The notes under the pieces were generated by a model. It ran no database searches. It was not told the origin of the DNA and saw only the letters and a program-made list of their open reading frames with translations. A program made the position numbers and the translations under genes. A stretch of 64,000 nucleotides of DNA from Halococcus qingdaonensis (GTDB lineage: Archaea > Halobacteriota > Halobacteria > Halobacteriales > Halococcaceae), in assembly GCF_024508235.1 (NCBI RefSeq), contig NZ_CP101943.1:1116001-1180000 (forward strand), given 5' to 3'. Numbering within the stretch: the first letter of the stretch is position 1; every line of letters starts with the position of its first letter. This document shows positions 5,457-45,036 of the stretch, piece by piece.

Positions 5457-6434
5457 GTGATCGAACCGGGGCCGGAATCGGAGTCGGGGCTGCTCGACCG
5501 CGAGGGGCTCTCGAACGTCGAGAAGTGGTTAGCGCCCGCCGTCGGCGTCGTCGTCGTGCTCGTCCTGCTGGCGGGCGTGGGCTTTCTCGTCACCGACTAT
5601 CTCGGCGGCAGTCCGAGCGGCCCGAACGACGCCGACCGCGCCGGCGTGGCCGCTCCAGGGAACAACACGACGATCCCCGCGACCACCACGAACGCCACGG
5701 CGACGACCGCCCAGCCGACGGCAACGATCGTAGAGACGACCACGACGGCGACGCCGACTCCGACACCGACGGCAACCGACACGCCAACGGACACGCCGAC
5801 ACCGACCGATACGGACACCCCGACGCCGACCGAAACCGACACAGCAACGCCGACCACGACGCCAACGCCGGAACCGACGGCCACGGCGACGCCGACGTCC
5901 GAGGCGACCGAGACACCGACGGAGACGCCCACGCCGACCCCGACGCCGACCGAGACGGCAACCCCCACGGAAACGCCGACGGCAACCGAAACGCCGACGC
6001 CAACTGATACACCACCACCTGAAGCGGCCGCCCAGAGTGAGACGGAGACGACCACCCAAACGACGACCGACGAACCGACAACCGAAGCCGAAACCCAACT
6101 CACGACGGATTCTGCGACGACCACGACATCGACAGCGACGGCCACGGACACGCCGACAGCAGAGGCGGCCGAAACCCCTTCTTCGACGGAATCGTCGACC
6201 GCGACGCCGACTTCGACGCCAACCGCAACGCAGACGCCGACAGCTACCGTGACCGAGACGTCGACACCAACTCCAACTGACTCGGCAGCGACGGCCGCGA
6301 CCGCCGAGACAACGAGTCAGACGGCAGAACCGACGACGCAGACGGCGGAGCCAACGACAGAACGCACGACGACAGCAACGCAGACGGCAACCACGACCAC
6401 GACCGCGACGCGTCGTTCCGCAACGACGGCCTAA
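5457..6434 (+). CDS. Thr/Pro-rich mucin-like protein with one N-terminal membrane anchor
   Basis: About 325 residues from a GTG start (VIEPGPESESG). Residues 25-45 form one membrane segment (KWLAPAVGVVVVLVLLAG). The rest, about 270 residues, is low-complexity Thr/Pro/Glu/Ala with TPTPTPT-, TETPT- and TATAT-type runs. This looks like an extracellular stalk suited to O-glycosylation, held by a signal anchor. No folded domain and no PGF-CTERM are present. The repeated ACG-CCG/GCG codons also make long open antisense frames, which are artefacts. Its stop overlaps the stop of the convergent folCP gene. The start is uncertain because the frame extends further upstream. Confidence 0.7.
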   Translation: MIEPGPESESGLLDREGLSNVEKWLAPAVGVVVVLVLLAGVGFLVTDYLGGSPSGPNDADRAGVAAPGNNTTIPATTTNATATTAQPTATIVETTTTATPTPTPTATDTPTDTPTPTDTDTPTPTETDTATPTTTPTPEPTATATPTSEATETPTETPTPTPTPTETATPTETPTATETPTPTDTPPPEAAAQSETETTTQTTTDEPTTEAETQLTTDSATTTTSTATATDTPTAEAAETPSSTESSTATPTSTPTATQTPTATVTETSTPTPTDSAATAATAETTSQTAEPTTQTAEPTTERTTTATQTATTTTTATRRSATTA

Positions 6435-8878
6435 TCGTGTGATCCGTCGAATTCGTTCGGTGCGTTCGCTGCCTCGCTGACGCCGACGGCGGCGACGCTC
6501 TCGGCGACGTCGTGGACACGGACGATGTCCGCACCGCGCTCGGCGGCCAGTGCGCTCGCGGCCACCGTCGCCGACAGGCGCTCGCTCGCCTCGCTGCCGA
6601 CGAGATCGAACATCGACTTGTGCGAGTGGCCGAACAGGATCGGGCAGTCGAGCGCGCGGAACTCGCCCAGTCGGTCGAGGATCGCGAAGTTCTCCCGCTT
6701 GCTCTTGCCGAAGCCGATGCCGGGGTCGACGATGATCTGCTCGCGATCGAGGCCTGCCTTCTCGGCGAGCAGCACGCGCTCGCGCAGTTCGCGGATCGTG
6801 TCCTCGACCACGTCGTCGTATTCGATGTCGGCATCGGGATCGACGGGCGCGTCGATGCTGTGCATCACGACGAGCGGGCAGTCGTAGTCGGCGGCGACGA
6901 ACCGCATCTCCGGATCGTCGAGCCCCGTGACGTCGTTGATGATATCCGCGCCGGCATCGAGCGCTGCGCGCGCGACCGCCGCCTTCCGGGTGTCGATCGA
7001 GACGAGAGCGTCGAGTTCGGCGATGCGCTCGATGACGGGCACTACCCGATCGCACTCCTCATCGTCCGAGACGGGTTCCGCGCCCGGGCGGGTGCTCTCG
7101 CCACCCACGTCGATGATGTCGACGCCTTCGTCGATCATCGTCTCGGCCTGCTGGACCGCCTCTTCCGTAGTATCGAACTCACCACCATCGTGGAAACTGT
7201 CGGGTGTCACGTTGAGAATGCCCATCACCGCCGTCCCCTCCTCCCAGGGATAGCCGTGCTTTTCGGGTGCGACACCGATCGAGAGCGCCTCACGGATGTC
7301 GTTGGCGAGCGGTGCCAACCCGTAGGGCTGGCCGGCGAGCTTCTCGGTGAGGCGTTTGAACTGCGCGAGCGTGGCGAGCATGAGCACGTCGAGCGACTCC
7401 TCGTCCTGGTCGTTGAGCCCCGAGATCGAACACTCGCCGCCGAGTGAGAGCAGCTCTTCTTTGAGATACTGTGCCTGTCGCGGGCGCACGCGGGTCTTCA
7501 GCGCTCGATGGACGGCCTTGCCGCGCATCCGATAGGCCCCCGCGTCGGTGACGTGCGTCCCCTTGATCGCGCGCCGGGCGTCGTCGAGTCCGTCGATTTC
7601 CTTGGGCACGTCGAGGCGACTCCAGCGCGTCCGTGCCTCGCGAACGACGTAGAGCGAGCCACAGACGAGCACGCAGTCGTCCGGCTCGGCGTCATCGAGA
7701 GCGGTCTGGAGCGCGTCGGTGACGTCGCTGCGGGTATCGACGCGACTGTCGTCGAACACCTCCGCGAGAACCGCGTTGTCTTCGGCGCGCGGGACGTCCG
7801 GCCGGCAGGCGACGACGTGTTCGGGCGTCGGCAGTGCATCGACCATCCCCTGGTGATCCTTGTCCGCGAGCGCGCCGAACACGAGGTGGAGGTCCTCGAA
7901 ATCGAACTCGTCGAGCGTGTCGGCGAGGCGCTCGCACGCGCCGGGGTTGTGCGCACCGTCGAGCACGACCAGCGGATCGCGTTCGAGCACCTCGAACCGA
8001 CCGGGCCAGTAGGCCGCGCGCAGGCCGCGCGCAAGCGTTTCCTCGCCACACTCGATGTCGAATTCGCCGGCGACCTGTTGGGCGAGCGCCGCCGCGATGC
8101 CGGCGTTCTCGGCCTGATGGGCCCCAAGAAGTGAGAGTCGGGTTTCGACGGTCCAGTCCCGGCCGGAGAGCCGGATGGCGTTCTCGACGCCCGTTCGGCC
8201 CTCGTGTGTCACCGAGACGTCGCCGTCCGAGCCGACCGTCACGGCGTCGCCAGCGCTCTCCTCGATCGCCGCGCGCGCGTCGCCGGTCGCGGCGGTCACA
8301 ATGCTGTTTTCCTGGGGTGCGACGGTGGCCATGTCACGGCCGATCTCCGCAACTGTGTCGCCGAGCATGTCGGTGTGTTCGAGCGTGACGCTGGTGATGG
8401 CGCTGGCCACCGGATCGACGACGCTGGTCGCGTCGTAGCGCCCACCGAGACCGACTTCGAGCACGGCGACGTCGACCGACTGGCGGCGGAACTCCCACAG
8501 CGCCATCCCCGTGACGACCTCGAAGAAGGTGGGGGCATCGCCGTCGGCGGCCCGCTCCAGGACGTAGGGACGGATCGTTGCGACGTAGTCGGCGAGCGCG
8601 CTCTCGGAGATCATGCGGCCGCCGACGCGGACGCGCTCGCGAACGGAATCGAGATGCGGCGAGGTGTAGAGACCGACGTCGAGACCCGCTTCCCGGAGCA
8701 CCGATGCGACCATCCTCGCCGTGCTCCCCTTACCGTTGGAGCCGGCGATCTGGACGAACGCGATCCCCTCGTGTGGATCGTCGAGAACGGAGAGTAGGTC
8801 GTCGGTGGCGTCCAGGCCCGGGCGGGGCGGATACCGACGCAGGTCGAAGAGGAAGTTTGCCGCCTCGTGGAACTCCAT
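6431..8878 (-). CDS. folCP: FolC-FolP fusion: folylpolyglutamate/dihydrofolate synthase plus dihydropteroate synthase
   Basis: 815 residues with two enzymes in one chain. The N-terminal half (about 1-430) is the Mur-ligase-like FolC, with ATP loop GSNGKGST at 46-53, TSPHLDS, and GAHNPGA for the C-terminal ligase part. The last 264 residues (from 552) are dihydropteroate synthase, with MGILNVTPDSFHDGG, DVGGESTRPGAE and GFGKSK. A linker of about 110 residues (DVPKEIDGLDDARRAIKG onward) joins them. Haloarchaeal FolC-FolP fusions are known (Haloferax volcanii folCP). The role is to condense the pterin with pABA and add glutamate. The start is the ATG giving MEFHEAANFLFDL; 26 upstream in-frame residues look like leader. 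Confidence 0.93.
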   Translation of the reverse strand: MEFHEAANFLFDLRRYPPRPGLDATDDLLSVLDDPHEGIAFVQIAGSNGKGSTARMVASVLREAGLDVGLYTSPHLDSVRERVRVGGRMISESALADYVATIRPYVLERAADGDAPTFFEVVTGMALWEFRRQSVDVAVLEVGLGGRYDATSVVDPVASAITSVTLEHTDMLGDTVAEIGRDMATVAPQENSIVTAATGDARAAIEESAGDAVTVGSDGDVSVTHEGRTGVENAIRLSGRDWTVETRLSLLGAHQAENAGIAAALAQQVAGEFDIECGEETLARGLRAAYWPGRFEVLERDPLVVLDGAHNPGACERLADTLDEFDFEDLHLVFGALADKDHQGMVDALPTPEHVVACRPDVPRAEDNAVLAEVFDDSRVDTRSDVTDALQTALDDAEPDDCVLVCGSLYVVREARTRWSRLDVPKEIDGLDDARRAIKGTHVTDAGAYRMRGKAVHRALKTRVRPRQAQYLKEELLSLGGECSISGLNDQDEESLDVLMLATLAQFKRLTEKLAGQPYGLAPLANDIREALSIGVAPEKHGYPWEEGTAVMGILNVTPDSFHDGGEFDTTEEAVQQAETMIDEGVDIIDVGGESTRPGAEPVSDDEECDRVVPVIERIAELDALVSIDTRKAAVARAALDAGADIINDVTGLDDPEMRFVAADYDCPLVVMHSIDAPVDPDADIEYDDVVEDTIRELRERVLLAEKAGLDREQIIVDPGIGFGKSKRENFAILDRLGEFRALDCPILFGHSHKSMFDLVGSEASERLSATVAASALAAERGADIVRVHDVAESVAAVGVSEAANAPNEFDGSHD

Positions 8879-9007
8879 ATCTGACACCGGTGGGGCCGTG
8901 GTTTGAGCGTATCGGACGTTCCCGTTCACCGCTCGCACGACGACCGGAATCGACATGGAAACCGGTGTTCACCACGACAGGCCGTTTTCCGTCCTGACGC
9001 GCGAGAG

Positions 9008-9856
9008 TCAGCAGTACGACGACAGCGCCTCGTAGGCTTCGCTGGCGGCTCGATCCGGTTCGTCGGGATACGTGTAGAGTTCGAGCGTGGCGAATCCGCC
9101 ATACTCGATATCGTCGAGCGCGTCGAAGATCGCCCGGAAGTCAAGATCGCCCTCGCCGGGGATGCGGTGGTAGTGTTTGCCGCGGACGCCGCCGACGATG
9201 TCCTCCAGATGGACGCCGGTGATGTGACCTGCACACCGCCGGATCGTCTCCGCAGGATCTTCTCCGTAGACGGCCGCGTGGCCGACGTCAAGGTTGACCC
9301 CGAGCGCGTCGTGACCGACGTCCTGGATCAGTTCCAGGACTTCCTCGGTGCACTCGACGAGCAGCTCGGGCTCGTACTCGATGCCCACCTCGACGTCGCG
9401 CTCGTCTGCGTATTCACAGATCGTGTCGAGCGAGTCGAGCAGGTACTCGTAGGCCCGATTCGGCGGATTGCCGGGCAGCGGGCGACCGGTGGCGAGACAG
9501 ACCGCCGGCGCGCCGACCTCGTCGGCGAGGTCGATGGCTCGCTTCGTGTAGTCGATGCGCCACTCGCGTCCCTCGTCGTCGGCAGTGACGACGCTTGGAT
9601 CGAAGAAGGACGATGGCGGCACGTCGTCGTAGTAGCCCGTCGCGGTGTTCGCGTTGATGTTCGAGACCTCGATGCCCGTATCGTCAAGCACTGTTGACAG
9701 CTCATTTCGGTCGTCCTCGCCGAAATCGGGGAAGAAGGCGTGCGGCTCGTCGCCCAGGATCTCGACGCCGGCGTAGCCGTGGTCGGCGATGCGTTCGATC
9801 GCGTCCGGCAGCGCGTGGCGCGTGTAGGCGTTCGTCGAAAATGCCAGTTCGACCAT
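9008..9856 (-). CDS. TIM-barrel sugar phosphate isomerase/epimerase (EboE-like)
   Basis: 282 residues of the xylose-isomerase-like TIM-barrel superfamily. Likely metal ligands include the Glu in GIEYEPELL, Asp/His in LDVGHAAVYG and HLEDIVGG, and the late Glu in TLELYTY. It is the last gene of a minus-strand unit (TatD-like, TIM-barrel 2, UbiA, this gene), 42 bp after ubiA. It is clearly paralogous to the gene at 10827-11657 (shared EPD/ELLxExxEExLE and GHxxxxGEDP segments). The substrate is unknown; the context suggests a sugar-phosphate or cyclitol intermediate. The start MVELAFSTNAY is preferred over a version 10 residues longer. Confidence 0.82.
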   Translation of the reverse strand: MVELAFSTNAYTRHALPDAIERIADHGYAGVEILGDEPHAFFPDFGEDDRNELSTVLDDTGIEVSNINANTATGYYDDVPPSSFFDPSVVTADDEGREWRIDYTKRAIDLADEVGAPAVCLATGRPLPGNPPNRAYEYLLDSLDTICEYADERDVEVGIEYEPELLVECTEEVLELIQDVGHDALGVNLDVGHAAVYGEDPAETIRRCAGHITGVHLEDIVGGVRGKHYHRIPGEGDLDFRAIFDALDDIEYGGFATLELYTYPDEPDRAASEAYEALSSYC

Positions 9857-9898
9857 GACGAAGGCAGGGCCGGCCTCCCGAAACACCTTCCGACGGCG

Positions 9899-10840
9899 CT
9901 ACGAGACGTCGAACAGGCGGGAGAGGCCGACCGCGGGGATGAGAAAGGCGAGGACGGCGAGCGCCCAGCCGACGCCCGCGAGCGCCGCGAACGCCGCGTC
10001 GAGCACGACGAGCGCGAGGACACAGGTCCCGACCGCCGGGCCGACGGTATCCGGTCGAGGGGTCGCGTACGCCGGGCCGAGCGCGCGCCCGGTCCACACC
10101 AAGAAGCCGCCGGCGAGTCCGACGGCGAACGCGAACCGGACGAGCGACGGCCCCAGGGTTACGACCGCCGCGAGAACCCCGAGAACGGCCAGCAACACGC
10201 CGGCGGCTGCCGCCGCGACCGCGCCGCGCTCGGTCGTCGTCGCCTCGTTGTCAGCCATATACGTCACGGCAGCGATATACAGCGCGATGACGATCGGGAT
10301 CACGAGCGCCCACGCGGGGAGCGCGGCTGTCGATGCCGTCGCTCCCGCCGCCGTCCCGAGCAACACGTCGAGTCCGCGCGCGCTGCCCATCGCGAGAAAG
10401 CCGGCGGGACCACCCTTGAGAACGCCGTCGTAGAGTGCGATGACTGCCGCGAGCGCCGCCGCGAACAGGCCGGCTCGTGGGCCGGCCGTCCCGAGCGCGA
10501 CGAGCATGCCGCCGACCAGCAGCGCCGCGCCGAGCGCGCCCGCCGTCCGCCGTGGAACCCTGCCCGACGGGATCGGGCGTTCCGGGCGCTCGCGTGCGTC
10601 GATCGGCGCGTCGAAGTAGTCGTTCAGCGTCGTGCCGCCGGCGTACAGCAGCGTCGACGCGACCGCGAGTCCGACGAGCGCAGGTATCGAAATCCTTCCA
10701 CCGATGGCGGCGACGAGCGCACCACCGAGCAGGACGTCCGGCGGTGCGCTCGCGAGGTTCGGAACGCGCACCAGCGCCGCGTAGGCCGCGAGTTTCCCGC
10801 GCGATTCGGCCTCGCACGCGGGCCCCTCAGATCCACCCAC
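9899..10840 (-). CDS. UbiA-family prenyltransferase (EboC-like)
   Basis: Polytopic membrane protein of about 313 residues with roughly eight or nine hydrophobic helices. The first Asp-rich motif is N73-D74-x2-D77-x3-D81 (NDYFDAPIDARERPERPIP). A second region, YDGVLKGGPAGF then SARGLDVLLG, matches the other UbiA site loosely. Family members move an isoprenoid chain onto a polar or aromatic acceptor. Being next to a cyclitol-phosphate-type synthase and sugar isomerases, the acceptor may be a cyclitol or sugar phosphate. The start is ambiguous: GTG at 10840 (chosen, overlapping the upstream gene by 14 bp) or TTG at 10849. Confidence 0.85.
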   Translation of the reverse strand: MGGSEGPACEAESRGKLAAYAALVRVPNLASAPPDVLLGGALVAAIGGRISIPALVGLAVASTLLYAGGTTLNDYFDAPIDARERPERPIPSGRVPRRTAGALGAALLVGGMLVALGTAGPRAGLFAAALAAVIALYDGVLKGGPAGFLAMGSARGLDVLLGTAAGATASTAALPAWALVIPIVIALYIAAVTYMADNEATTTERGAVAAAAAGVLLAVLGVLAAVVTLGPSLVRFAFAVGLAGGFLVWTGRALGPAYATPRPDTVGPAVGTCVLALVVLDAAFAALAGVGWALAVLAFLIPAVGLSRLFDVS

Positions 10841-11657
10841 CGTCTTCAAGATAGGCCATCGCCTCGCGGGCGGTCTCGGCCGCCGTCTCCTCGTAGGGGT
10901 AGAGCTCGATCGTCACGAACCCGTCGTACTCCCGCGAATCGAGTGCATCGAGAAACTCGTCGATCGGTAGTGCGCCGTCACCGAGCTGGGTGTGTTCGTG
11001 GCGGCGGTCTGCGGGGATGTCCTCCAGATGGATGTGATCGGTGTACTCCGCGAGCCGGTCGAACGCTTCGATGGGATCTTCGCCGACGCTGAACAGATGG
11101 CCCGCGTCGAAGTTACAGCGAATTCGTGGGTGGTCGATGCGCTCGGCGAACTCCAAGAACTCCTCCGAGGTCTCGATGAGGAGGTCCGGTTCGGGTTCGA
11201 CGTGCAGGTCCACACCCACCTCCTCGGCGACCGGGAGGACCTCTTCGAGGCTCTCGACGAACGTCTCGACGGCCCACTCGCGAGATTTTTCGTCCGGGAT
11301 AGGGCCACCGGGTTCGATCGAGATATATCCATGTCCGAGCGCGGCTGCCGTCCGGAGGGCGGCTTTCGTGTAGTCGATGCGCTGCTGGCGGTAGTCCGTG
11401 TCCGGCTCGATGTAGGAGGGATGGTGGAACCCCTCGATGGCGGTCAGCATGAACGCGTTGCAGTTGCCGATGGCGAGATCGTTCGCGGCGAGCGCTTGAC
11501 CGATCTCCTCGATATCGTCCTCGCTCGCCTCGGGCGGGTAGAGATGTGGCTCGTCGAACAGCAGTTCGATGCCATCGTAGCCCGCGTCGGCGACGATCTC
11601 GATCGCCTCGCGCGCGTCGTACTCCCGAAAGGCGTTCGCGGAGAACCCGAACTTCAT
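10827..11657 (-). CDS. TIM-barrel sugar phosphate isomerase/epimerase, second copy (EboE-like)
   Basis: 276 residues, xylose-isomerase-like TIM barrel starting MKFGFSANAFREYDAREAI. Candidate metal and substrate residues lie in VEPEPDLLIE, NFDAGHLFSVGEDP, IHLEDIPADRRHEHTQLGDG and TIELYPYEET. It overlaps the upstream TatD-like gene by four bases (ATGA) and the ubiA start by 14, so the three are tightly coupled. It is similar to but clearly diverged from its paralogue at 9008-9856, so the two probably act on different intermediates. The specific reaction cannot be read from sequence. Confidence 0.84.
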   Translation of the reverse strand: MKFGFSANAFREYDAREAIEIVADAGYDGIELLFDEPHLYPPEASEDDIEEIGQALAANDLAIGNCNAFMLTAIEGFHHPSYIEPDTDYRQQRIDYTKAALRTAAALGHGYISIEPGGPIPDEKSREWAVETFVESLEEVLPVAEEVGVDLHVEPEPDLLIETSEEFLEFAERIDHPRIRCNFDAGHLFSVGEDPIEAFDRLAEYTDHIHLEDIPADRRHEHTQLGDGALPIDEFLDALDSREYDGFVTIELYPYEETAAETAREAMAYLEDGGWI

Positions 11658-12454
11658 CGCTCGTAGGTGAAGTTCGGCGACTGATCGAAGAACTCGTAGG
11701 GGTTGTCGAAGACGACCTTCTTCACGTCCTCGCGCTCCCAGCCCCGATCGAGCATCTTGTCGCGCGCCTTCGGCACCGCGAGCGGGTCAGAGGGGTCCCA
11801 GTCGGCGGCGCTGTTGAAGAGCATCTTGTCGGTGCCGTACTCCTCCAGGAGGTCGATGGCCGCCTCGTCCTCGATCTTGCCGGGGTAGAGCGTGAAACCG
11901 ACCCAGCAGTCCGTGGTGAGGGAGGTCTCGATCGTCTCTGCGGTGTTGTGATCGATGACGATGCGCTCCTGAGCGACACCTTCGTCCTCGATGATGTCGA
12001 CGATCCGCTCGGTGCCCGCGAGCTTGTCCGTGTGCGGCGTGTGGATGATGACGGGGAGTTCGCGTTCCTCGGCCATCCGCAGCTGGGTGCGAAACGCCCA
12101 CTCCTCGTCGTCGGTGCCTTGATCGAACCCGATCTCGCCGAGGCCGACGACGTTCTCGCGGTCGAGATACTCCGGCAGGCGGTCCAGAACTTCTTCGGCC
12201 ATCTCGCGGTAGTTCGCCTCCTTGGGTTCCAGCCCGATGGTGACGTAGTGATCCATCCCGCCGGCGCGCTCGGCACGCGCGGTCTCGAAGTCGATGATCT
12301 GCTCGAAGTAGTCGAAAAACGAGCCCGCGTGCTGTTTGTCCGTGCCGCTCCAAAACGCGGGTTCGATGCAGCACTCGATGCCAGCCCGACGCGCCCGTGC
12401 ATAGTCGTCGGCCGAGCGCGAGACCATGTGCATGTGCGGATCGATGATCTCCAT
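11654..12454 (-). CDS. TatD-like metal-dependent hydrolase (EboB-like)
   Basis: 266 residues, amidohydrolase/TatD fold. The HxH metal motif is at the N-terminus (DPHMHM, His7 and His9). Further ligand candidates are Glu in GLGEIGFDQG, His in VIIHTPH and IDHNTAE, and Asp in NSAADWDPSDP. Ordinary TatD proteins are nucleases or deacylases, but this one opens a prenyltransferase/isomerase operon and so more likely handles a small molecule, as EboB proteins do. First gene of its operon. A palindrome (12484-12500) lies 30 bp before the ATG and is a good operator candidate. Confidence 0.82.
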   Translation of the reverse strand: MEIIDPHMHMVSRSADDYARARRAGIECCIEPAFWSGTDKQHAGSFFDYFEQIIDFETARAERAGGMDHYVTIGLEPKEANYREMAEEVLDRLPEYLDRENVVGLGEIGFDQGTDDEEWAFRTQLRMAEERELPVIIHTPHTDKLAGTERIVDIIEDEGVAQERIVIDHNTAETIETSLTTDCWVGFTLYPGKIEDEAAIDLLEEYGTDKMLFNSAADWDPSDPLAVPKARDKMLDRGWEREDVKKVVFDNPYEFFDQSPNFTYER

Positions 12455-12483
12455 AGCCGCGAGTGGGTGCCGGACGCACTACT

Positions 12484-12500
12484 ATGTACTGATCGTACAT
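12484..12500. promoter_or_regulatory. Palindrome upstream of the TatD-like operon, candidate operator
   Basis: Perfect 6-bp inverted repeat ATGTAC-N5-GTACAT, 30 bp before the ATG at 12454 and therefore overlapping where the TATA element should be. It would suit a dimeric repressor. No regulator is encoded next to it. Confidence 0.45.
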
Positions 12501-12530
12501 TCTCGGGTCTCGATCCGGCATCCATTGCGG

Positions 12531-12611
12531 CGGATCGGCGTGCGAGGGATGAGCGAGGAGCGTAGCGACGAGCGAATCGGTTGGGGAGGTATGTGGGCTG
12601 TTGCGGTTCTC
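12531..12611 (+). repeat. Dispersed modular repeat, copy A (right half only)
   Basis: Contains the left box GGATCGGCGTGCGAGGGATG and the right box ATCGGTTGGGGAGGTATGTG around a short variable centre rich in GAGCG units. Copies B (21444-21631) and C (23209-23366, inverted) share both boxes and extend further left. Confidence 0.75.
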
Positions 12612-12848
12612 ACTTGAGTCAGATCCGTCGCGTCGGAGTTGGCTGCTACAAGGATTCAGTCGATCATCCTTCAAAAGATCAGGTCGATAATCGGACAGTT
12701 CGGTGCCGACATCACAAAGTAGGTGTGTCTCGGAACCCTGGTTTCAGGGGATGCAGCGACGGACTTCCGAGCCGATCGGAAAACAGGGGAGCGAATCGCA
12801 ATCGAGTCGGGATGGACGAGCGAACGTCACGACGGTCGGGTGGTCGCG

Positions 12849-14078
12849 ATGAGCGCGAGCATCGGCGTCTGGCTCGTCGGCGCGCGCGGGAACGTCGCCA
12901 CGACGGCGATGATCGGTGCGCGTGCCATCGCCCACGGCGCGACCGACACGACGGGGATGGTCTCCGAGCGCGCACCGTGTACGGGACTCGACCTCCCGAA
13001 AATCGACTCGCTCGTCTTCGGCGGTCACGACGTCCAGGACGGCAGCGTCGTCGAGACGGCCGAGCGCCTCGCGGAGCGCAACGGCATTCCCGATCGCGCG
13101 ACGCTCGACGCCGTTCGTGACGATCTCGACACGATCGACGAACGCATCGAGACCGGCACGGCACGCAACTGCGGGCAGGCGGTCACGGAAATTGCCGACG
13201 GGGGAATCGACGAGTCGCTCTCGTTGCGGGCGATCGTCGGGAATATTCAGGACGACTACGAGCGATTCCGCGAGGACAACGAGCTGGAGCGAGTAGTTGT
13301 GATCAACGTCGCCTCTTCGGAGCCGCTGCCGGCAGACCCCGAGAGATACGACTCGATCGAGGCCGTCGAACGTGCGCTCGACGAGGACGAACCGTTGCCG
13401 GCGAGTTCGCTGTACGCCTACGCCGCACTTGCCGGCGGCCATCCGTTCGTGAACTTCACGCCGAACGCCGCGAACGCGCTCGGTGGACTGCGCGAGCTGG
13501 CCGAGCGCGAGGGCGTTCCGCACATGGGCAAGGACGGCAAGACGGGCGAGACGCTGATGAAGTCCGCGCTCGCGCCGATGTTCGCCCAGCGCAATCTCCG
13601 GGTGCGCTCGTGGGAGGGTCACAACATCCTCGGAAACAAGGACGGCGAGGTGCTCGAAGACGATGCGAACAAAGCTGGAAAGTTGGCGAGTAAGGGCGGC
13701 GTGCTCGACGGCATCCTCGATCACGAGACCCACAACCGAGTCAGGATCGACTACACGCCCGCGCTCGGCGACTGGAAGACCGCGTGGGACGACATCCGTT
13801 TTCGGGGATTCCTCGATACCGACATGAAACTCCAGTTCACCTGGGAGGGCTCCGATTCGGCGCTCGCCGCGCCGCTCGTGCTCGATCTCGCGCGCTTGCT
13901 CGCGTTCGCCGACGAGCAGGGTGAGTCGGGATTGCAGCCCCAGCTCGCCTCCTTTTTCAAAGCGCCGCTCGGCGTCGACGAGCACGGTCTCTCGAAACAG
14001 TTCGGGATGCTCCAAGAGTACGTCGAAGCGCACGCCGCGCAGCCGACCGCCGTCGGCGCGGAGGGTGACGATGACTGA
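12849..14078 (+). CDS. myo-Inositol-1-phosphate synthase-family protein of the ebo-like cluster
   Basis: 409 residues. N-terminal Rossmann segment GVWLVGARGNVATTAMIGA. The catalytic domain of the inositol-3-phosphate synthase family is visible in GKDGKTGETLMKSAL (key lysines), SWEGHNILGNKDG, and FLDTDMKLQFTWEGSDSALA. Classical members cyclise glucose 6-phosphate with NAD. Since it is paired with sugar isomerases and a prenyltransferase rather than lipid genes, the substrate may be another sugar phosphate. It takes the place that the dehydroquinate-synthase-like EboD has in ebo operons. It overlaps the next gene by 8 bp. Start MSASIGVWLVG chosen by homology. Confidence 0.85.
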   Translation: MSASIGVWLVGARGNVATTAMIGARAIAHGATDTTGMVSERAPCTGLDLPKIDSLVFGGHDVQDGSVVETAERLAERNGIPDRATLDAVRDDLDTIDERIETGTARNCGQAVTEIADGGIDESLSLRAIVGNIQDDYERFREDNELERVVVINVASSEPLPADPERYDSIEAVERALDEDEPLPASSLYAYAALAGGHPFVNFTPNAANALGGLRELAEREGVPHMGKDGKTGETLMKSALAPMFAQRNLRVRSWEGHNILGNKDGEVLEDDANKAGKLASKGGVLDGILDHETHNRVRIDYTPALGDWKTAWDDIRFRGFLDTDMKLQFTWEGSDSALAAPLVLDLARLLAFADEQGESGLQPQLASFFKAPLGVDEHGLSKQFGMLQEYVEAHAAQPTAVGAEGDDD

Positions 14079-15423
14079 CGGCGACGCGGGGCGGGCGATC
14101 GTCCTCGACGTCATCGGTCTCGAACGCGAGCACGTCGCGGCGGGGCTCGCGCCGAACATCGCCGATCTCGTGGCCGACAGCGCGCGTGCGGACCTCCAGT
14201 CGCCGTTCCCAGCCGTCACACTCCCCGTCCAGAGCACGCTCGCGACGGGCCAGTCGCCCGAAAACCACGGCGACGTGGCCAACGGCGAGTACGACCGGGA
14301 GAACGATACGGCGGCGCTCTGGGAGCGCGACAGCGAGAGCCGGGATCGCCTCTGGGAGAGCGCGAGCGAGGCGGGGCTCACCACCGGCGTGCTCTGCTTT
14401 CAGCATCTCATCGGGACGACGGCGGACGTCGCGCTCACGCCCTCGCCGATCGAGGACGAGGAGAACAATATTTTAGAGATGAACTGCTGGACGAACCCCG
14501 ACGGGTTCTACGACGAGCTCGAAGCCGAGTACGGCCACTTCCCGCTCCACACCTACTGGGGTCCCGGCGCGAACGAGGAATCGACCGCGTGGATCCTCGA
14601 CGCCGCCCGCGAGGCCATCGACCGCTACGATCCCGACCTGCTCTGGATCTACATCCCGTATCTCGACTACGCGGGGCTGGCCCACGGCGCGAGCAGCGAC
14701 GAACTCCGCGAGGCGATCGGCGTTGCCGACGACCTCGTCGGCGATTTCCTCGACTTCCTGCGCGACGGCGAGCGCTGGGGCGAAACGGCAGTGAACGTCG
14801 TCAGCGAGTACGGCTTCCACGACGTCGACACACCCGTGTTCCCGAATCGCGCGCTGCGCGAGGCGGGACTGCTCTCGGTCCAAGACGACGGCGAGGGCGG
14901 CGAGGAGATCGACCTCCCGAACTCGCGGGCATTCGCGCTGGTCGATCACCAAGTGGCCCACGTTTACGCCGACGAGGACGTCGTCGACGAGGCGCGCGAC
15001 GCACTCACCGGACTCGATGGCGTCGAGCGCGTGCTCGACGAGGAAGGGAAAGAGGAGTACGGCGTCGCCCACCCGAACGCCGGCGAGCTCGTCTGCGTCG
15101 CCGAGCGATCGGGTTGGTTCCAGTATTACTGGTGGTTCGACGACGCGAACGCACCGTACTACGCCCGCGACATGGACATCCACGCGAAACCCGGCTTCGA
15201 CCCCGTCGAGCTGTTCTTCGGCGAGGAGGGGCTCGTCTCGCTCGATGCCTCGAAGGTCGGCGGCTCGCACGGCCGCGCCGACGTCGACGGGTTCTACGGG
15301 CTGGGCGGCCCGGCGGCTCCCGACTCGGTACCCGACGACGTGGACGCACGGGCGGTCGCGCCGACGCTCACCGATCTGCTCGATGTCGACGTCGAAACGG
15401 CGTTCGAACTCGACGCGCTGTAA
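14071..15423 (+). CDS. Alkaline phosphatase superfamily (nucleotide pyrophosphatase-like) protein, EboF-like
   Basis: 450 residues, phosphodiesterase/nucleotide-pyrophosphatase branch. The nucleophile region is FPAVTLPVQSTLATGQSPEN with HGDVANGEYD following. Further metal-site segments are WIYIPYLDYAGLAHG and SEYGFHDVD, with a C-terminal GGSHGRADVDGF. No signal peptide or anchor is seen, so it appears cytoplasmic, unlike many homologues. It overlaps the upstream synthase-like gene by 8 bp, so the two should be translated together. It probably removes a phosphate from, or cleaves, a cluster intermediate. It ends 7 bp from the convergent sugar dehydrogenase gene. Confidence 0.83.
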   Translation: MTDGDAGRAIVLDVIGLEREHVAAGLAPNIADLVADSARADLQSPFPAVTLPVQSTLATGQSPENHGDVANGEYDRENDTAALWERDSESRDRLWESASEAGLTTGVLCFQHLIGTTADVALTPSPIEDEENNILEMNCWTNPDGFYDELEAEYGHFPLHTYWGPGANEESTAWILDAAREAIDRYDPDLLWIYIPYLDYAGLAHGASSDELREAIGVADDLVGDFLDFLRDGERWGETAVNVVSEYGFHDVDTPVFPNRALREAGLLSVQDDGEGGEEIDLPNSRAFALVDHQVAHVYADEDVVDEARDALTGLDGVERVLDEEGKEEYGVAHPNAGELVCVAERSGWFQYYWWFDDANAPYYARDMDIHAKPGFDPVELFFGEEGLVSLDASKVGGSHGRADVDGFYGLGGPAAPDSVPDDVDARAVAPTLTDLLDVDVETAFELDAL

Positions 15424-15430
15424 AAACGAC

Positions 15431-17488
15431 CTATTCTTTGCGCCCGGACAGCAACCGGGCCGCACCGATCGTCAGCCCCGACAGCGCCGCCAAGACGCCG
15501 AACCCGGGGCCCGAGTCGCTGCTCGTCCCCGCCGAGACGCCGCCCTCGCCGCCCGCCTGCGTCCCCTCGGTCGCCGTCCGTGCGTTCGTCCCGTCTGTCG
15601 ACGATGGTGTGGCGTCTGTCCGACCGCCGATCCCGGTCGTCCCGGCGGCCGTCGTGTTCGTGGCGGCCGTCGCGTTCGAGGTTGTCGCCGAGCCGTTCGG
15701 GGCGGTCACGTTGCCGGTCGCGGTCGCATCCTGGGATTGAGGTGGCACGATCCGGTGGACCGCGCCGGTCGCCTCGCTGCCCGGGTTCGCGGTCGTCAAC
15801 ACGTAGAGTCGGTCGTCGTTGTCGCGGCCCATCGCGAGGATATAGCCGCCGACGAACCCGCTGTCGGTGTTCTCGACCGAGAGCTCCGCGACGTCCCAGA
15901 GACCGTCGTCCTCGGCGGGCGTGGCCGCCAGCAGCGATCCCGTCGGCGTCTCAGTCTCTTTCGATTTGCGGAAATCGCCGAAGACGTAGTCGCCCTGGAG
16001 GTCGGGGATATCATCGCGCTGGTAGAGATAGCCTCCCATGGCTGCCGAGCCGACACCCTGCCCGTCGGCGCTGTGTGGATACTCGATCACGGGATCGATG
16101 AGCCGTTCGCCGCCGCGTACGTCCGACGGGAGTTTGCTCGGGCAGTTCTCGGGCGGGTTGCGACTGCCTTCGGGACCGGGTTTGAAACAGTGGGTGCCCT
16201 CGCGAACGTTCCACCCGTAGTTCTTGTCTTTCTCGACGATATCGATCTCCTCGAAACCGTTCTGGCCGACGTCCGAGGTGAACAGCTTGCCGTCGGAAAA
16301 GCCCATCCGCCACGGGTTACGGAACCCCCAGGCGAACTGCTCGTTCAGTCCGTCCTCCCCCACGAGCGGGTTGTCGTCGGGAATCCCGTAGGCCTTGTCG
16401 CCCTCCTGGCTGTCGACGTCGATGCGCAGGATCGAGCCGAGCAGGTTCTCGGTGACGTCCTGGCCGTTGCCACCCTCGTTGCGATCGTACCAGTCGCTTA
16501 CGTGACCCAGATCGGTGTCGTGTGCGCCGCCACCGTCGCCCATCGCCACGTAGAGATAGCCGTCGTCGGGCCCGAAGACGATCGCGCCGGCATTGTGTGT
16601 GTCGTACGGCGAGGGGATCTCCAAGATCGTCCGTTCCGAGTCGACGTTCCCCGTCGAGCCGTCCTCGCTCGCCTCGAACTCGGAGAGCACCTCGGTGTGC
16701 GAGAACTCGTCGGGCGTTCCCTCGCGCGAGGGAGCGCTGTACCGCAGGTAGAACTTCCCGTTCTCGCCGTAGTTCGGATGGAACGCCATCCCGAGCAGCC
16801 CCATCTCGCCGGTGATCTCGGTCAGTTTGTCGCTCACGTCGATGAACGGCTCCTCGTTCAGGCTTCCCGACTCGTGGGCGTAGACCTGTCCGATGCGATC
16901 GACGATGAAGTAGCGACCGCTCTCGCCCGGCGGGACGCCGAAATCGAGCGGTGCGGTGAGCGTTCCCTCCGTCACCGTCTCGGTGCGCACCGTCGGACCG
17001 TCACCGAAATACGACGAGCCGCCGTCGCCGCTCTCGGTCGTGGTTTGGGTCGCCGTCTCCTCGCCGAAGGCGATCGAGCCGTGCATCGAGCTTCGGTGTG
17101 GCTCACAGATGTACTCGGCCATCTCCTCGCGCGCGGTGAACTCGATCGTCTGGGTCGCACCCTGCTCGTTCATCACCTCGGTGCGTTTCAGCACCTCGCC
17201 CTTCCCGTCGAGCAGCGCGATGTTGTGACCCTGGCCATCGATGTTCTTCCAGGTGATGCGGTAGTCGACGCCGGCGTCGAGCTGGAGCGTCGGGTTGCTC
17301 TCGTCGGCGATCGATTCGGGTTTGCGACCCTGCCAGCCGCCGATCTCGCCGCCGAGGCGGATCTCCGTCGGCTGGGACTGTGCACCCGCGATCCCCCCCG
17401 CACCGACGAGCGCACCGGCCGCTACGCTCGTGCGGAGGAATCGTCTGCGGGTCGTTGCGTGTCGGCCTGTCGCGGCGTTCGTTCTCAT
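15431..17488 (-). CDS. Secreted cupredoxin/PQQ-type sugar dehydrogenase fusion 1, PGF-CTERM-like
   Basis: 685 residues. Tat signal (RRRFLRTSVAAG, about 14-38). A cupredoxin domain follows (about 40-145) with type 1 copper ligands His88, Cys128, His131 and Met135 in HNIALLD and YICEPHRSSM. Then a PQQ-dependent aldose dehydrogenase beta-propeller (about 170-590; GLLGMAFHPNY, GYLYVAMGDGGG, GNGQDVTENLLGSILRIDVD, WGFRNPWR). A Thr/Asn/Ala-rich stalk and a C-terminus GPGFGVLAALSG...RKE resemble PGF-CTERM sorting signals. It probably oxidises sugars outside the cell and passes electrons to its own copper centre. An alternative ATG at 17557 would overlap the upstream gene by 4 bp. Confidence 0.87.
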   Translation of the reverse strand: MRTNAATGRHATTRRRFLRTSVAAGALVGAGGIAGAQSQPTEIRLGGEIGGWQGRKPESIADESNPTLQLDAGVDYRITWKNIDGQGHNIALLDGKGEVLKRTEVMNEQGATQTIEFTAREEMAEYICEPHRSSMHGSIAFGEETATQTTTESGDGGSSYFGDGPTVRTETVTEGTLTAPLDFGVPPGESGRYFIVDRIGQVYAHESGSLNEEPFIDVSDKLTEITGEMGLLGMAFHPNYGENGKFYLRYSAPSREGTPDEFSHTEVLSEFEASEDGSTGNVDSERTILEIPSPYDTHNAGAIVFGPDDGYLYVAMGDGGGAHDTDLGHVSDWYDRNEGGNGQDVTENLLGSILRIDVDSQEGDKAYGIPDDNPLVGEDGLNEQFAWGFRNPWRMGFSDGKLFTSDVGQNGFEEIDIVEKDKNYGWNVREGTHCFKPGPEGSRNPPENCPSKLPSDVRGGERLIDPVIEYPHSADGQGVGSAAMGGYLYQRDDIPDLQGDYVFGDFRKSKETETPTGSLLAATPAEDDGLWDVAELSVENTDSGFVGGYILAMGRDNDDRLYVLTTANPGSEATGAVHRIVPPQSQDATATGNVTAPNGSATTSNATAATNTTAAGTTGIGGRTDATPSSTDGTNARTATEGTQAGGEGGVSAGTSSDSGPGFGVLAALSGLTIGAARLLSGRKE

Positions 17489-17553
17489 TGGAGTCTCGTT
17501 GTCGTCGATCGGATCGTCGCGGTGCTGGGATGAGGGCGAACGGTCACGGCGGC

Positions 17554-19587
17554 TCATCGATCGTCACCACCCAGCAGGCGTGCGACGCCGAGTGCGATCG
17601 CGGCGAGCCCGGCAAGAATGCCGAATCCCGGCCCGTCGCCGCTCACGATACCGCCGCTCTCGCCCGTCCGTGCCGTGTCCGACTCGTTCGTCGTCTCGGT
17701 CGGCGTCGCCGTCGCCGTTGCGGTCGGTGTTGGCGTCGGTTCGGGGGTCGCCGTCGCGGTCGCCGGTCGGGCCGGCGTGTCTGTGGTCGCGGTCGAGCGT
17801 TCCTCGGCCTCCGGTGGCCGAAGACGATGGACGGCACCCGTCTCACCTTCGACGCCGAGATTGTCGGTCGTCAGCGCGTAGAGCTCGCCGTCGTTGTCGC
17901 GGGCGACACAGAGGAGATAGGAACCGAGCTCGCCGTTCTCGCCGTTGCCGATCGAGACCTCCTCGACCGACCACGAGTCGCCCTCGACGGGCGTGGCGGC
18001 GAACAGCGATCCACGTGGTGTGCCGTCCTTACTGTAATCGCCGAACACGTACTTGTTTCGAAGACCGGGAATGGTCGCGTTCTGGTAGATGTAGCCGCCG
18101 ATGACGGCGACGCCGACGCCGTTCGTCTCGTAGGTGTGCGGATACTCGATCACGGGATCGATGAGCGGCTCCCCGCCGCGGACGTCCGGCGGCGTCTTCG
18201 TGGGACAGTTGGAGCGATACGGGTCCGATCCCTGCGTGGCGACGAAACAGTGGCCGCCCTCGCGGACGTTCCAGCCGTAGTTACCGCCCTTGCGGACGAC
18301 GTTGACCTCCTCGTACCGGCGCTGACCGACGTCGGCGGCCATCAGCTTCCCGTCGGAGAAACCGATGCGCCACGGGTTGCGAAAGCCCCAGGCGTACTGT
18401 TCGTCAAGGCCTTCCTTGCCGACGAGCGGGTTGTCGTCGGGGATGCCGTAGGCCTTGTCGCCGTCGCGGCCGTCAACGTCGATACGCAGCACCGATCCCA
18501 TGAGGTTCTCGGTGACGTCCTGGCCGTTGCCGCCGAGGTTCGCACCGTACCAGTCGTCGGGCTGTTTCGACGATTTGAGCGCGCCGCCGCCGTTGCCGAT
18601 GCCGATATACAGGTAGTCGTCGGGGCCGAAGACGATCGCCCCGCCGTTGTGGGTGTAGTACGGCGAGGGGATTTCGAGCACCGTCCGCTGGGAGTCCGCG
18701 ACCGCCCCGGTCACGTCCTCGTTGGCCTCGAACTCCGCGATGACCTGCGTATGCGTGTAGTTTCCGGGCGTTCCGGGGCGCGATTTGGCACTGAAGTGGA
18801 CGTAGAACTTCCGGTTGTCGGCGAAGTTCGGATGAAAGGCCAACCCGAGCAGCCCGCGTTCGTCGATCGTCTTGATCTCGGGGAGGTTGTCGAAATCGAT
18901 GAGCTGATCGCGCACGTCGAGGAAGACGTCGCCACCGCTGCCGTCGGCTCCGTATCGACGGATGACGCCGATCTGATCGACGATGAAGAACGCGTCGCGC
19001 TCGCCTGGTGGGGCTTCGAGCCCGAGCGGGGCCGTGATGCCGCCGTCGATGACGGTGTCGGTCCTGACCGTCGGGCCCGTCGGGAAGAACCCCTCCGGCT
19101 CGCTCGACTCCGTCGTCGTCTCGGTCCCACCGCTTTCGCTCGACAGCGTGATGTCGCCGCGCATCGAGTTGAGGTGGGCCTGACAGACGTACTCGTCCAT
19201 CGCCTCGGTCGCCGTGAACTCCAGTGTCTGGGTCTGCCCCTCGTCGGACATGTACTGGGTGCGCTCGATGACGGCGTCGTCGGCATCGAGCAGGGCGACG
19301 TTGTGCTGTGCGCCGTCGACGTTCTTCCACGTCAGTCGGTAGGTCGTCCCGACGTCGAGTTCGAGCGTTGGGTTGGTCGTCCCCTGGATCCCCGATGGCT
19401 TCCGACCGACCCAGCCGGTCGTCTCGCCGCCGAGGCGGATCGGCGTCGGCTGGGACTGGGCACGTGCACCCGTAATACTTCCGACGCCGGCGAGACCGGT
19501 CACGCCGGCAGCGGTGGCAGCGAGAAAGCGCCGGCGGGAGGGCCGACCGGACGGAATGGAGGTCTCTCCGTTGGTTCCCTTCGTCAT
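17554..19587 (-). CDS. Secreted cupredoxin/PQQ-type sugar dehydrogenase fusion 2, PGF-CTERM-like
   Basis: 677 residues with the same layout as the next gene downstream: Tat signal (RRRFLAATAAGV), cupredoxin domain with His95, Cys135, His138 and Met142 (QHNVALLD, YVCQAHLNSM), sugar dehydrogenase propeller (LLGLAFHPNF, YLYIGIGNGGG, GNGQDVTENLMGSVLRIDVD), a Thr/Pro-rich stalk (TPTPTATATATP) and a PGF-CTERM-like end (GPGFGILAGLAA...GGDDR). It is first in a two-gene unit with fusion 1. The propeller sequences differ enough that different sugars are likely. ATG at 19587; the 170 bp upstream hold the promoter. Confidence 0.87.
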   Translation of the reverse strand: MTKGTNGETSIPSGRPSRRRFLAATAAGVTGLAGVGSITGARAQSQPTPIRLGGETTGWVGRKPSGIQGTTNPTLELDVGTTYRLTWKNVDGAQHNVALLDADDAVIERTQYMSDEGQTQTLEFTATEAMDEYVCQAHLNSMRGDITLSSESGGTETTTESSEPEGFFPTGPTVRTDTVIDGGITAPLGLEAPPGERDAFFIVDQIGVIRRYGADGSGGDVFLDVRDQLIDFDNLPEIKTIDERGLLGLAFHPNFADNRKFYVHFSAKSRPGTPGNYTHTQVIAEFEANEDVTGAVADSQRTVLEIPSPYYTHNGGAIVFGPDDYLYIGIGNGGGALKSSKQPDDWYGANLGGNGQDVTENLMGSVLRIDVDGRDGDKAYGIPDDNPLVGKEGLDEQYAWGFRNPWRIGFSDGKLMAADVGQRRYEEVNVVRKGGNYGWNVREGGHCFVATQGSDPYRSNCPTKTPPDVRGGEPLIDPVIEYPHTYETNGVGVAVIGGYIYQNATIPGLRNKYVFGDYSKDGTPRGSLFAATPVEGDSWSVEEVSIGNGENGELGSYLLCVARDNDGELYALTTDNLGVEGETGAVHRLRPPEAEERSTATTDTPARPATATATPEPTPTPTATATATPTETTNESDTARTGESGGIVSGDGPGFGILAGLAAIALGVARLLGGDDR

Positions 19588-43008: not shown

Positions 43009-45036
43009 TCAGTGCCGGAGGCGGCGCGCGGCGAGACCACCGATGCCGGCGAGCGCGGCGAGCACACCGAAGCCCGCCCCGTCACCGCTCGTTTCGGTTC
43101 CGCTTGCGTTGCCCGATCCGTTCGTCCCGTCCGATCCGTTCGTTCCACCCGATCCGCTCGCCGTGCCGTTTCCAGCCGCCGATCGAACGCCCGCCGTCGC
43201 GTTCGCGTCGGTATCGGTCGCATCGGTATCGGCCGTATCGGTTCCCAGTGCGCTCGTGGCGGAACCCGTTGCGTTCGCGGTCGCGTTCGTCCCGTCCGGG
43301 GTCGTCACGGTGCCCGTCGCCTCGGTCGCCGTGATCCGGTTCACCGCGCCGCCGAGCTCGCCGGCGGAGGTCAGCGCGAACAGCTCGCCGTCGGCGTCGC
43401 GGGCGATGGCGATGAGATAGCCCTCGACCGCGCCGCCCTCTGCGCCCGCGACCTGAAGCCGTTCGAGATCCCAGAGCCCGTCGTCGGTAGGGGTGGCCGC
43501 GAACAGCGATCCGCGCGGATCGCCCTCCTTGCTGTAGTCGCCGAAGACGTATTTCCCATCGAGAGCGTCGATCGAGCCGTCGTAGAGATAGCCACCGATG
43601 ACCGAGATGCCGATGGTCTCGCCGTTGCGGGCGTGGGGATACTCGATGACGGGATCGTGGAGCGGCTCGCCACCCCGGACGTCCGGCGGGGTTCGACTCG
43701 GGCAGTTCTTCGGCATGTCGCTCAGGCTCTCGGTGCCGTAGCAGTGGGTGCCCTCGCGGACGTTCCAGCCGTAGTTGCCGCCCTTCACGACGCGATCGAT
43801 CTCCTCGTAGCGGTTCTGGCCGACGTCGGCGACGTAGAGCTCGCCGTCGTTGAAACTCATTCGCCAGGGGTTGCGAAAGCCCCACGCGAAGTGTTCGTCC
43901 AATCCGTCCTTGCCGACGAGCGGGTTGTCGTCGGGGATCGCGTAGGGTTTCTCCCCATCTTGGTTGTCGACGTCGATGCGCAGGATCGATCCGCGGAGGT
44001 TCTCGGTGACGTCCTGGCCGTTGCCGCCGCGATTGCGATCGTACCAATCGCTCGCGTGACCGGGACCCGTGTCCCGTGGGCCGCCACCGTCGCCGTAGGA
44101 AGTATAGAGATAGCCGTCGGGCCCGAACGCGACCGCGCCGCCGTTGTGGACTTTGCGTGGTTCGTCGACTTCGAGCAACACTCGTTCGGAGTCGGGACGC
44201 GCGCTCGTTCCATCCTCGTTCGCCTCGAACTCCGAGAGGATCTCCGTGTGCGAGAACTCGTCGGGTGCGTCGTCGGCCGGCGGGGCGCTGTAGCGCACGT
44301 AGAAGCGCCGGTTCTCCTCGTAGTCGGGATGTGGTGCGAGGCCGAGAAAGCCGCGCTCGCCGGTGATCTCGGCGAGGCGATCGCGCAGATCGAGAAACGG
44401 CTCGTCGCGCAACTGATCGCCCTCGTTGAGCTGGGCGACCCCGTAGAGATCGACGACGACTCGCTGGTCGTCGCCCGGCAGTAGCGCCATGTCGGTCGGT
44501 ACCTGGAAGCCGCCGACGAGCCGTTCGAGGCCGATCGTCGGCCCGGTCGGGATGGCCTGCTCGGTGGTCGCGGCGTCCGTCGTGGCCGACGCTCCGGAGC
44601 CGAAGCGTACGCTCCCGCGCATCGACGACCGGTGTGGCTCGCAGATGTATTCGGCCATCTCCTCGCGGGCGGTGAACTCGATCGTCTGGGTCGCGCCCTG
44701 CTCGCTCATCACCTCGGTCCGTTCGAGGACTGCGTCGTTCTCGTCGACCAGCGCGATGTTGTGGCCCATTCCGTCGAGGTTCGTCCAGGTGATGCGGTAG
44801 TCGACGCCGGCTTCGAGGGCGAGCGTGGGATTTTCTTCGTCGGCGATCGAGTCGGGTGCATGACCCTGCCAGCCGGCGATCTTCCCGCCGAGTTCGATCG
44901 TTCGGGTGCTCTGTGCACGCCCGTGTCCGGCGGTGGCGACGCCCGCGAGCGCGCCGGCCGCCGTCAGCGAGAGAAAGCGTCGTCGGCTGGCGACCGCCCG
45001 ACTTCCGTCGTCCTGTGTGTGCTGTATCGGGTTCAC
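43009..45036 (-). CDS. Secreted cupredoxin/PQQ-type sugar dehydrogenase fusion 3
   Basis: 675 residues from a GTG start. Tat signal RRRFLSLTAAGAL; cupredoxin domain with His92, Cys132, His135 and Met139 (GHNIALVD, YICEPHRSSM); propeller of the soluble aldose dehydrogenase type (FLGLAPHPDY, GYLYTSYGDGGG, GNGQDVTENLRGSILRIDVD); an Asp/Thr/Ala/Asn-rich stalk with many NAT-type segments; and a C-terminal hydrophobic helix ending RRLRH. The end motif reads GAGFGVLAALAG rather than PGF, so processing may differ from the two copies at 15431-19587. It is closest to fusion 1 in the cupredoxin part. Confidence 0.87.
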   Translation of the reverse strand: MNPIQHTQDDGSRAVASRRRFLSLTAAGALAGVATAGHGRAQSTRTIELGGKIAGWQGHAPDSIADEENPTLALEAGVDYRITWTNLDGMGHNIALVDENDAVLERTEVMSEQGATQTIEFTAREEMAEYICEPHRSSMRGSVRFGSGASATTDAATTEQAIPTGPTIGLERLVGGFQVPTDMALLPGDDQRVVVDLYGVAQLNEGDQLRDEPFLDLRDRLAEITGERGFLGLAPHPDYEENRRFYVRYSAPPADDAPDEFSHTEILSEFEANEDGTSARPDSERVLLEVDEPRKVHNGGAVAFGPDGYLYTSYGDGGGPRDTGPGHASDWYDRNRGGNGQDVTENLRGSILRIDVDNQDGEKPYAIPDDNPLVGKDGLDEHFAWGFRNPWRMSFNDGELYVADVGQNRYEEIDRVVKGGNYGWNVREGTHCYGTESLSDMPKNCPSRTPPDVRGGEPLHDPVIEYPHARNGETIGISVIGGYLYDGSIDALDGKYVFGDYSKEGDPRGSLFAATPTDDGLWDLERLQVAGAEGGAVEGYLIAIARDADGELFALTSAGELGGAVNRITATEATGTVTTPDGTNATANATGSATSALGTDTADTDATDTDANATAGVRSAAGNGTASGSGGTNGSDGTNGSGNASGTETSGDGAGFGVLAALAGIGGLAARRLRH

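Follow-up and report, generated by a model that had tools for sequence, protein, structure and literature searches.

Does a six-gene neighborhood in the haloarchaeon Halococcus qingdaonensis belong to ebo, a gene cluster described from bacteria and algal plastids (PMC5133447, PMC6092422, PMC6282210), and if so, what might it make? The window analyzed was a 64,000-nucleotide stretch of contig NZ_CP101943.1 (positions 1,116,001 to 1,180,000), and all positions below are counted from its first nucleotide. ORF coordinates and Pfam matches (PF01261 twice, PF01040, PF01026, PF07994 plus PF01658, and PF01663) bore out the original prediction of six ORFs with the folds listed in Table 1. They form two transcription units, EboB-TIM1-EboC-TIM2 on the minus strand (12454 to 9008) and INO1-EboF on the plus strand (12849 to 15423), within which genes lie close together or overlap (EboB/TIM1 by 4 bp, TIM1/EboC by 14 to 23 bp, and INO1/EboF by 8 bp). 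The prediction spoke of two divergent, overlapping gene sets; they are indeed divergent, but the sets do not overlap each other, as an intergenic region separates EboB from INO1 and presumably contains both promoters.

Table 1. Features of the Halococcus qingdaonensis locus, in window coordinates
Feature	Position	Strand	Description
EboB	11654..12454	-	TatD/amidohydrolase-fold hydrolase, 266 aa; leads the minus-strand operon
TIM1	10827..11657	-	xylose-isomerase-like TIM barrel, 276 aa
EboC	9899..10849	-	UbiA-superfamily prenyltransferase, 316 aa; start TTG 10849 or GTG 10840
TIM2	9008..9856	-	xylose-isomerase-like TIM barrel, 282 aa; ATG 9856 is the corrected start
Divergent intergenic region	12455..12848		394 bp, from the coordinates of the flanking starts
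INO1	12849..14078	+	L-myo-inositol-1-phosphate synthase, 409 aa; ATG 12849 is the corrected start
EboF	14071..15423	+	type I phosphodiesterase/nucleotide-pyrophosphatase fold, 450 aa; ATG 14071 is the corrected start
Two tandem copper-domain/GSDH proteins	15431..19587	-	secreted-type; accessory neighbors outside the core

The resemblance to ebo was upheld for three proteins, EboB, EboC, and EboF, which group with Ebo proteins and not with housekeeping enzymes and whose relatives are located in bacterial ebo clusters. EboB shares 40 to 46% identity with EboBs from bacterial ebo clusters (Streptomyces, Azospirillum, Aureibacter, Gloeothece, Mycetohabitans, and Deinococcus, where the annotated neighbors are other ebo genes) and 22 to 28% with other haloarchaeal TatD proteins; H9, E107, H138, H169, and D218 are invariant across 14 EboBs, and the 15 haloarchaeal EboBs form a single clade in the EboB tree. 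The top NCBIfam model for EboC is EboC itself at 175 bits, a score under the curated cut-off of 250, and the next UbiA paralogue in the genome reaches 68 bits against the same model. In the EboC tree the protein sits with EboCs; of the genome's six other UbiA paralogues, five fall elsewhere and one is a very long branch. EboF matches PF01663 at 155 bits and is 40 to 42% identical to actinobacterial EboF; its E246-Y247 and W163-G164-P165 motifs are nearly invariant in 92 sequences, and the E246-Y247 position is D-H in solved nucleotide pyrophosphatases. We consider it almost certain that the haloarchaeal six-gene cluster belongs to ebo, and because EboA, EboD, and EboE were not found, we classify it as a variant and not as canonical eboABCDEF.

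Two TIM-barrel sugar isomerases had been set in a comparison that included EboE; the folds are confirmed (PF01261 at 165 bits for TIM1 and 154 bits for TIM2), but the identity with EboE is not. Both were rejected as EboE by their scores against the EboE model NF035939 (at most 31 bits, with TIM1 at 30, for a cut-off of 250) and by a tree that separates them from EboE, although they are nonetheless the highest scorers for this model in most cluster-bearing genomes. TIM1 and TIM2 are paralogues, about 37% identical, with orthologues of TIM1 in two bacterial clusters (L052 and L058) and of TIM2 in three (L050, L052, and L058). Searches of 13 cluster-bearing genomes returned no EboE, no EboA over the cut-off, and no PF01761 match over the cut-off that would mark EboD, most of these genomes having INO1 in its stead, and EboG had no match in the haloarchaeal loci. 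The predicted absence of EboA is thus correct in all 13 genomes, but it is not a local feature: the EboB tree contains a fully supported split with EboA in 0 of 37 rows on one side, where all 15 haloarchaeal rows lie, and in 60 of the 66 on the other. EboA is missing from the haloarchaeal cluster because its EboB lineage is generally without it, in agreement with the EboA/EboG divide already described (PMC5133447); loss or relocation of EboA within haloarchaea was rejected on the same two observations, no above-cut-off match in 13 genomes and lineage-wide absence. The EboB and INO1 trees are quick trees with SH-aLRT support only and no bootstraps.

Across haloarchaea, the six genes are neighbors, as the original prediction required: 43 of 59 haloarchaeal loci contain all of them, which excludes a chance grouping of six ORFs. 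Individual counts over these loci are EboB 59, TIM1 57, EboC 57, TIM2 56, EboF 51, and INO1 46; they are counts of loci and not of independent events, as the loci are phylogenetically non-independent and a few share one genome, and several incomplete loci run into a contig edge. The order EboB-TIM1-EboC-TIM2 is almost constant, and the divergent arrangement is kept in most of the 59. When the search was widened to 394 haloarchaeal genomes from 86 genera, 55 genomes and 19 genera proved to have the EboB gene. Of 117 haloarchaeal genomes, 10 had EboC; INO1, searched for independently, was present in these 10 and no others, and 107 had neither. Four copies of the cluster, complete or partial, lie on plasmids, and the patchy spread matches the expectation for a mobile accessory trait.

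The INO1 protein, the cyclase of the cluster, has the PF07994 plus PF01658 fold. It matches the myo-inositol-phosphate synthase (mIPS) of Archaeoglobus fulgidus, 1u1i, at a phmmer E value of 1.3e-94 and conserves the equivalents of its catalytic lysines (K274, K278, K306, and K367), although its fold is common to related cyclitol-phosphate synthases, e.g., 6k96. Because all four lysines are kept, inositol 1-phosphate is likely to be the first intermediate. To see how this enzyme relates to EboD, 80 genome loci were collected by EboB similarity, plasmid and haloarchaeal loci were added, neighbors were scored by tblastn, and the 92 archaeal and bacterial loci that held two or more of EboB, EboC, and EboF were counted. 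INO1 alone was present in 41, EboD alone in 34, both in none, and neither in 17, many of the last on short contigs; selection by an EboB query biases this sample, in which related species are entered individually. Replacement of EboD by a cyclitol-phosphate synthase-like enzyme is thereby supported, the two being mutually exclusive in the 92 loci. At a stricter threshold and with duplicates removed, a 280-aa TIM barrel was present in 38 of 40 loci with INO1 and in 0 of 33 with EboD. The swap had, however, been presented as an archaeal version of ebo, and this did not stand, since Actinomycetota and a few proteobacterial ebo clusters likewise have INO1 and not EboD. Holders of INO1-type ebo are Haloarchaea, Actinomycetota, a Gemmatimonadota plasmid, and rare proteobacterial or unassigned metagenome-assembled genomes (MAGs); the Actinomycetota clusters that are otherwise recognized as ebo lack EboD too.

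A single clade of INO1-type EboBs opposed to EboD-type ones was rejected (AU test, P = 1.7e-6), and the EboB tree indicates that the swap of INO1 for EboD took place at least twice; the most economical interpretation is that ebo lineages acquired the INO1/TIM module on two or more occasions or that it moved between lineages. In the INO1 tree, cluster INO1s from haloarchaea, Actinomycetota, and Proteobacteria lie on one side of a branch with SH-aLRT 96 and archaeal housekeeping INO1s lie apart, with the cluster INO1 of Gemmatirosa outside the group; the tree gives no support to local capture of an archaeal housekeeping gene. Three non-ebo haloarchaeal INO1s are nested inside the haloarchaeal cluster INO1s, which suggests that INO1 may have been reused later outside ebo. 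Nor is INO1 exclusive to ebo in haloarchaea: Halomarina plasmids carry INO1 without nearby ebo genes, there is a second copy in Halorussus aquaticus, and an INO1 of Haloferax volcanii may be another such case. Conversely, INO1 is absent or fragmentary in several haloarchaeal loci that keep the other five genes (L048/L234, L215, L216, and L230, with fragments in L228 and L238), so inositol made by the cell itself is not needed in every case. Such clusters would need imported inositol or another substrate; by ORF inspection of four of these loci, no substitute for INO1 was recognized beside them.

Comparison with known systems places the cluster more closely. It has orthologous EboB, EboC, and EboF in common with canonical eboABCDEF of Bacteroidota, Cyanobacteria, and eustigmatophyte plastids (PMC5133447, PMC6282210), and both cluster an NAD-dependent sugar-phosphate cyclase with one or more TIM barrels of the xylose-isomerase fold; unlike the canonical cluster, it has no EboA, EboD, or EboE, INO1 in place of EboD, two short TIM barrels, and two divergent units. 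INO1-type ebo of Actinomycetota (with an SCO3242-family prenyltransferase; e.g., Streptomyces L028 and L029) likewise combines INO1, a short TIM barrel, EboB, EboC, and EboF, but it keeps EboA and EboE, has one short TIM barrel, and has its EboB on the EboA side of the tree. The EboG-type operon of Deinococcus and others (PMC5133447) has an EboB in the same EboA-less clade as the haloarchaeal EboB, but also EboD, EboE, and a small EboG, none of which the haloarchaeal cluster contains. The same six orthologues, with no EboA, EboD, or EboE, are present in L052, a proteobacterial MAG, and in L058, and four of them in the partial L050 (INO1, TIM2, EboB, and EboC only); their gene order and spacing differ from those of the haloarchaeal cluster, and they are known only from rare MAGs.

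What such a cluster would make is less certain. To our knowledge, no compound or activity has been assigned to any complete ebo pathway. We think it reasonably probable that this is an ebo cluster of the EboA-less lineage that uses INO1 as its cyclase and whose product is a prenylated cyclitol lipid, as was conjectured for ebo generally in 2016 (PMC5133447). In the route that we infer, from its individual reactions and their order to the product and its role, INO1 would convert glucose 6-phosphate to L-myo-inositol 1-phosphate, TIM1 and TIM2 might isomerize, epimerize, or dehydrate the cyclitol, and membrane-bound EboC would add a prenyl group, probably C20 geranylgeranyl; EboF may remove the phosphate and EboB may carry out a metal-dependent hydrolysis. 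The membrane-anchored prenylated cyclitol could then aid export or extracytoplasmic oxidation, as ebo does in scytonemin producers; in Nostoc the cluster is required for scytonemin precursors to reach the periplasm (PMC6282210). The solved structure closest to EboC is an archaeal DGGGP synthase, an enzyme that prenylates a polyol phosphate on a hydroxyl. Two further observations count against a cyclitol product, namely, the EboC score below the curated cut-off and the several haloarchaeal clusters without INO1.

Most UbiA-superfamily enzymes use aromatic acceptors. An EboC from flavobacteria has been shown in vitro to farnesylate aromatic quinolines, and the excerpt of that report makes no mention of a cyclitol acceptor (PMC9235831); this activity fits an aromatic acceptor and counts against a cyclitol product. 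It is possible, if unlikely, that the TIM barrels and EboB instead dehydrate the cyclitol to an aromatic ring and that EboC prenylates the result to give a membrane redox carrier or a quinone-like cofactor for extracytoplasmic oxidases such as the neighboring copper-domain proteins. A candidate client lies next to EboF, where each of the two tandem proteins has both a plastocyanin-like copper domain and a glucose/sorbosone-dehydrogenase (GSDH) propeller (PF00127 plus PF07995). About 21 of the 59 haloarchaeal loci have relatives of these sugar dehydrogenases close to the cluster, where roughly 1 would be expected at 4.5 copies per genome; in three more loci the only match is to a different quinoprotein query, and in a separate clustering of neighboring ORFs the family occurs in 16 loci and is among the commonest non-core families. 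A search of 13 genomes for PqqC, run without a positive control, returned no match, which also favors a cofactor of this kind. However, the conserved core contains no oxidase or aromatase, most clusters have no GSDH neighbor, and the loci are phylogenetically non-independent; because related genomes share synteny, the proposal that the copper/GSDH proteins are clients of the ebo product is only suggestive.

The cluster might also make no dedicated lipid, its proteins directly aiding small-molecule export. In Nostoc punctiforme, the ebo cluster takes part in the movement of scytonemin precursors to the periplasm (PMC6282210), and NCBIfam names EboE a "metabolite traffic protein." Against this, the six proteins have enzyme folds with no transporter among them, and retention of an NAD-dependent cyclase, whether EboD or INO1, across phyla is a better fit to synthesis; a trafficking role of this kind is quite improbable. 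Less probable still is ordinary inositol metabolism, yielding an archaetidylinositol head group or an inositol osmolyte with the UbiA gene a neighbor by chance. PF01658 is matched only once in the genome, making the cluster copy its sole INO1, and inositol phospholipids can occur in haloarchaea (PMC8305020), but INO1 is missing from the 107 haloarchaea noted above and its 10 holders are exactly the EboC holders, the cluster INO1s fall with ebo-linked actinobacterial ones and not with archaeal housekeeping ones, and the EboB and EboF subfamilies are ebo-specific.

A broader extension of the prenylated-cyclitol reading is distinctly unlikely as a whole: EboD and INO1 plus TIM would be interchangeable, non-homologous routes to the same ring type, all ebo clusters from archaea to plastids would make one class of prenylated-cyclitol membrane cofactor, and the haloarchaeal version would serve secreted copper/GSDH sugar dehydrogenases. 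In the openly accessible literature searched, we found no description of an archaeal ebo cluster or of an inositol-phosphate synthase replacing EboD, and we know of no product identified for ebo since the cluster was named in 2016. The haloarchaeal cluster extends ebo into Archaea. The recurrent swap of two unrelated cyclases that never co-occur provides genomic evidence for a cyclitol core in the product, and because the substrate and product of INO1 are known, the starting compound of the INO1 variant can be guessed.

INO1, the inositol-phosphate synthase that stands in for the usual cyclase EboD, was absent from the haloarchaeal loci L048/L234, L215, L216, and L230, with the remaining ebo cluster intact, and persisted only as a fragment at L228 (13397-13504) and L238 (6017-6253), where the other cluster genes were likewise intact. 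Among bacteria, the Paenibacillus loci L090 and L099 group EboC, EboF, and EboB; neither EboD nor INO1 was recognised in these two clusters, which may carry a third kind of cyclase. The hybrid cluster on a Gemmatirosa plasmid (L032) lies between the known ebo types, combining EboE, EboG (weak), EboB, EboF, and EboC with INO1 and a short TIM barrel.

Tandem copper-domain/glucose/sorbosone-dehydrogenase proteins often lie near haloarchaeal ebo clusters, and an additional copy matched near window positions 43018-44500. A Mur-ligase/pterin-binding fusion adjoins the xylose-isomerase-like TIM barrel TIM2 and is kept as a neighbour within the genus.

Coordinates of ebo neighbours and plasmid INO1 genes
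Feature	Locus	Position	Strand
Plastocyanin-like copper domain + glucose/sorbosone-dehydrogenase propeller, tandem protein	window	15431-17557	minus
Plastocyanin-like copper domain + glucose/sorbosone-dehydrogenase propeller, tandem protein	window	17554-19587	minus
Mur-ligase (FolC-like) + pterin-binding (FolP-like) fusion protein	window	6431-8956	minus
INO1, Halomarina plasmid	L139	10001-11188	
INO1, Halomarina plasmid	L140	10001-11191	

Residues E-Y at 246-247 of the window EboF (14071-15423) are near-invariant across 92 EboFs and occupy the position of the metal-binding D-H in solved nucleotide pyrophosphatases; judging from these residues, the metal site or chemistry of EboF may differ from theirs.

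No ebo genes were found near the two Halomarina plasmid INO1s, which share ~66% identity with the window INO1; in L139, a GT4 glycosyltransferase gene adjoins. Because these INO1s and a second Halorussus copy (L132) are placed inside the haloarchaeal ebo INO1s, their position suggests reuse of INO1 in a different pathway.
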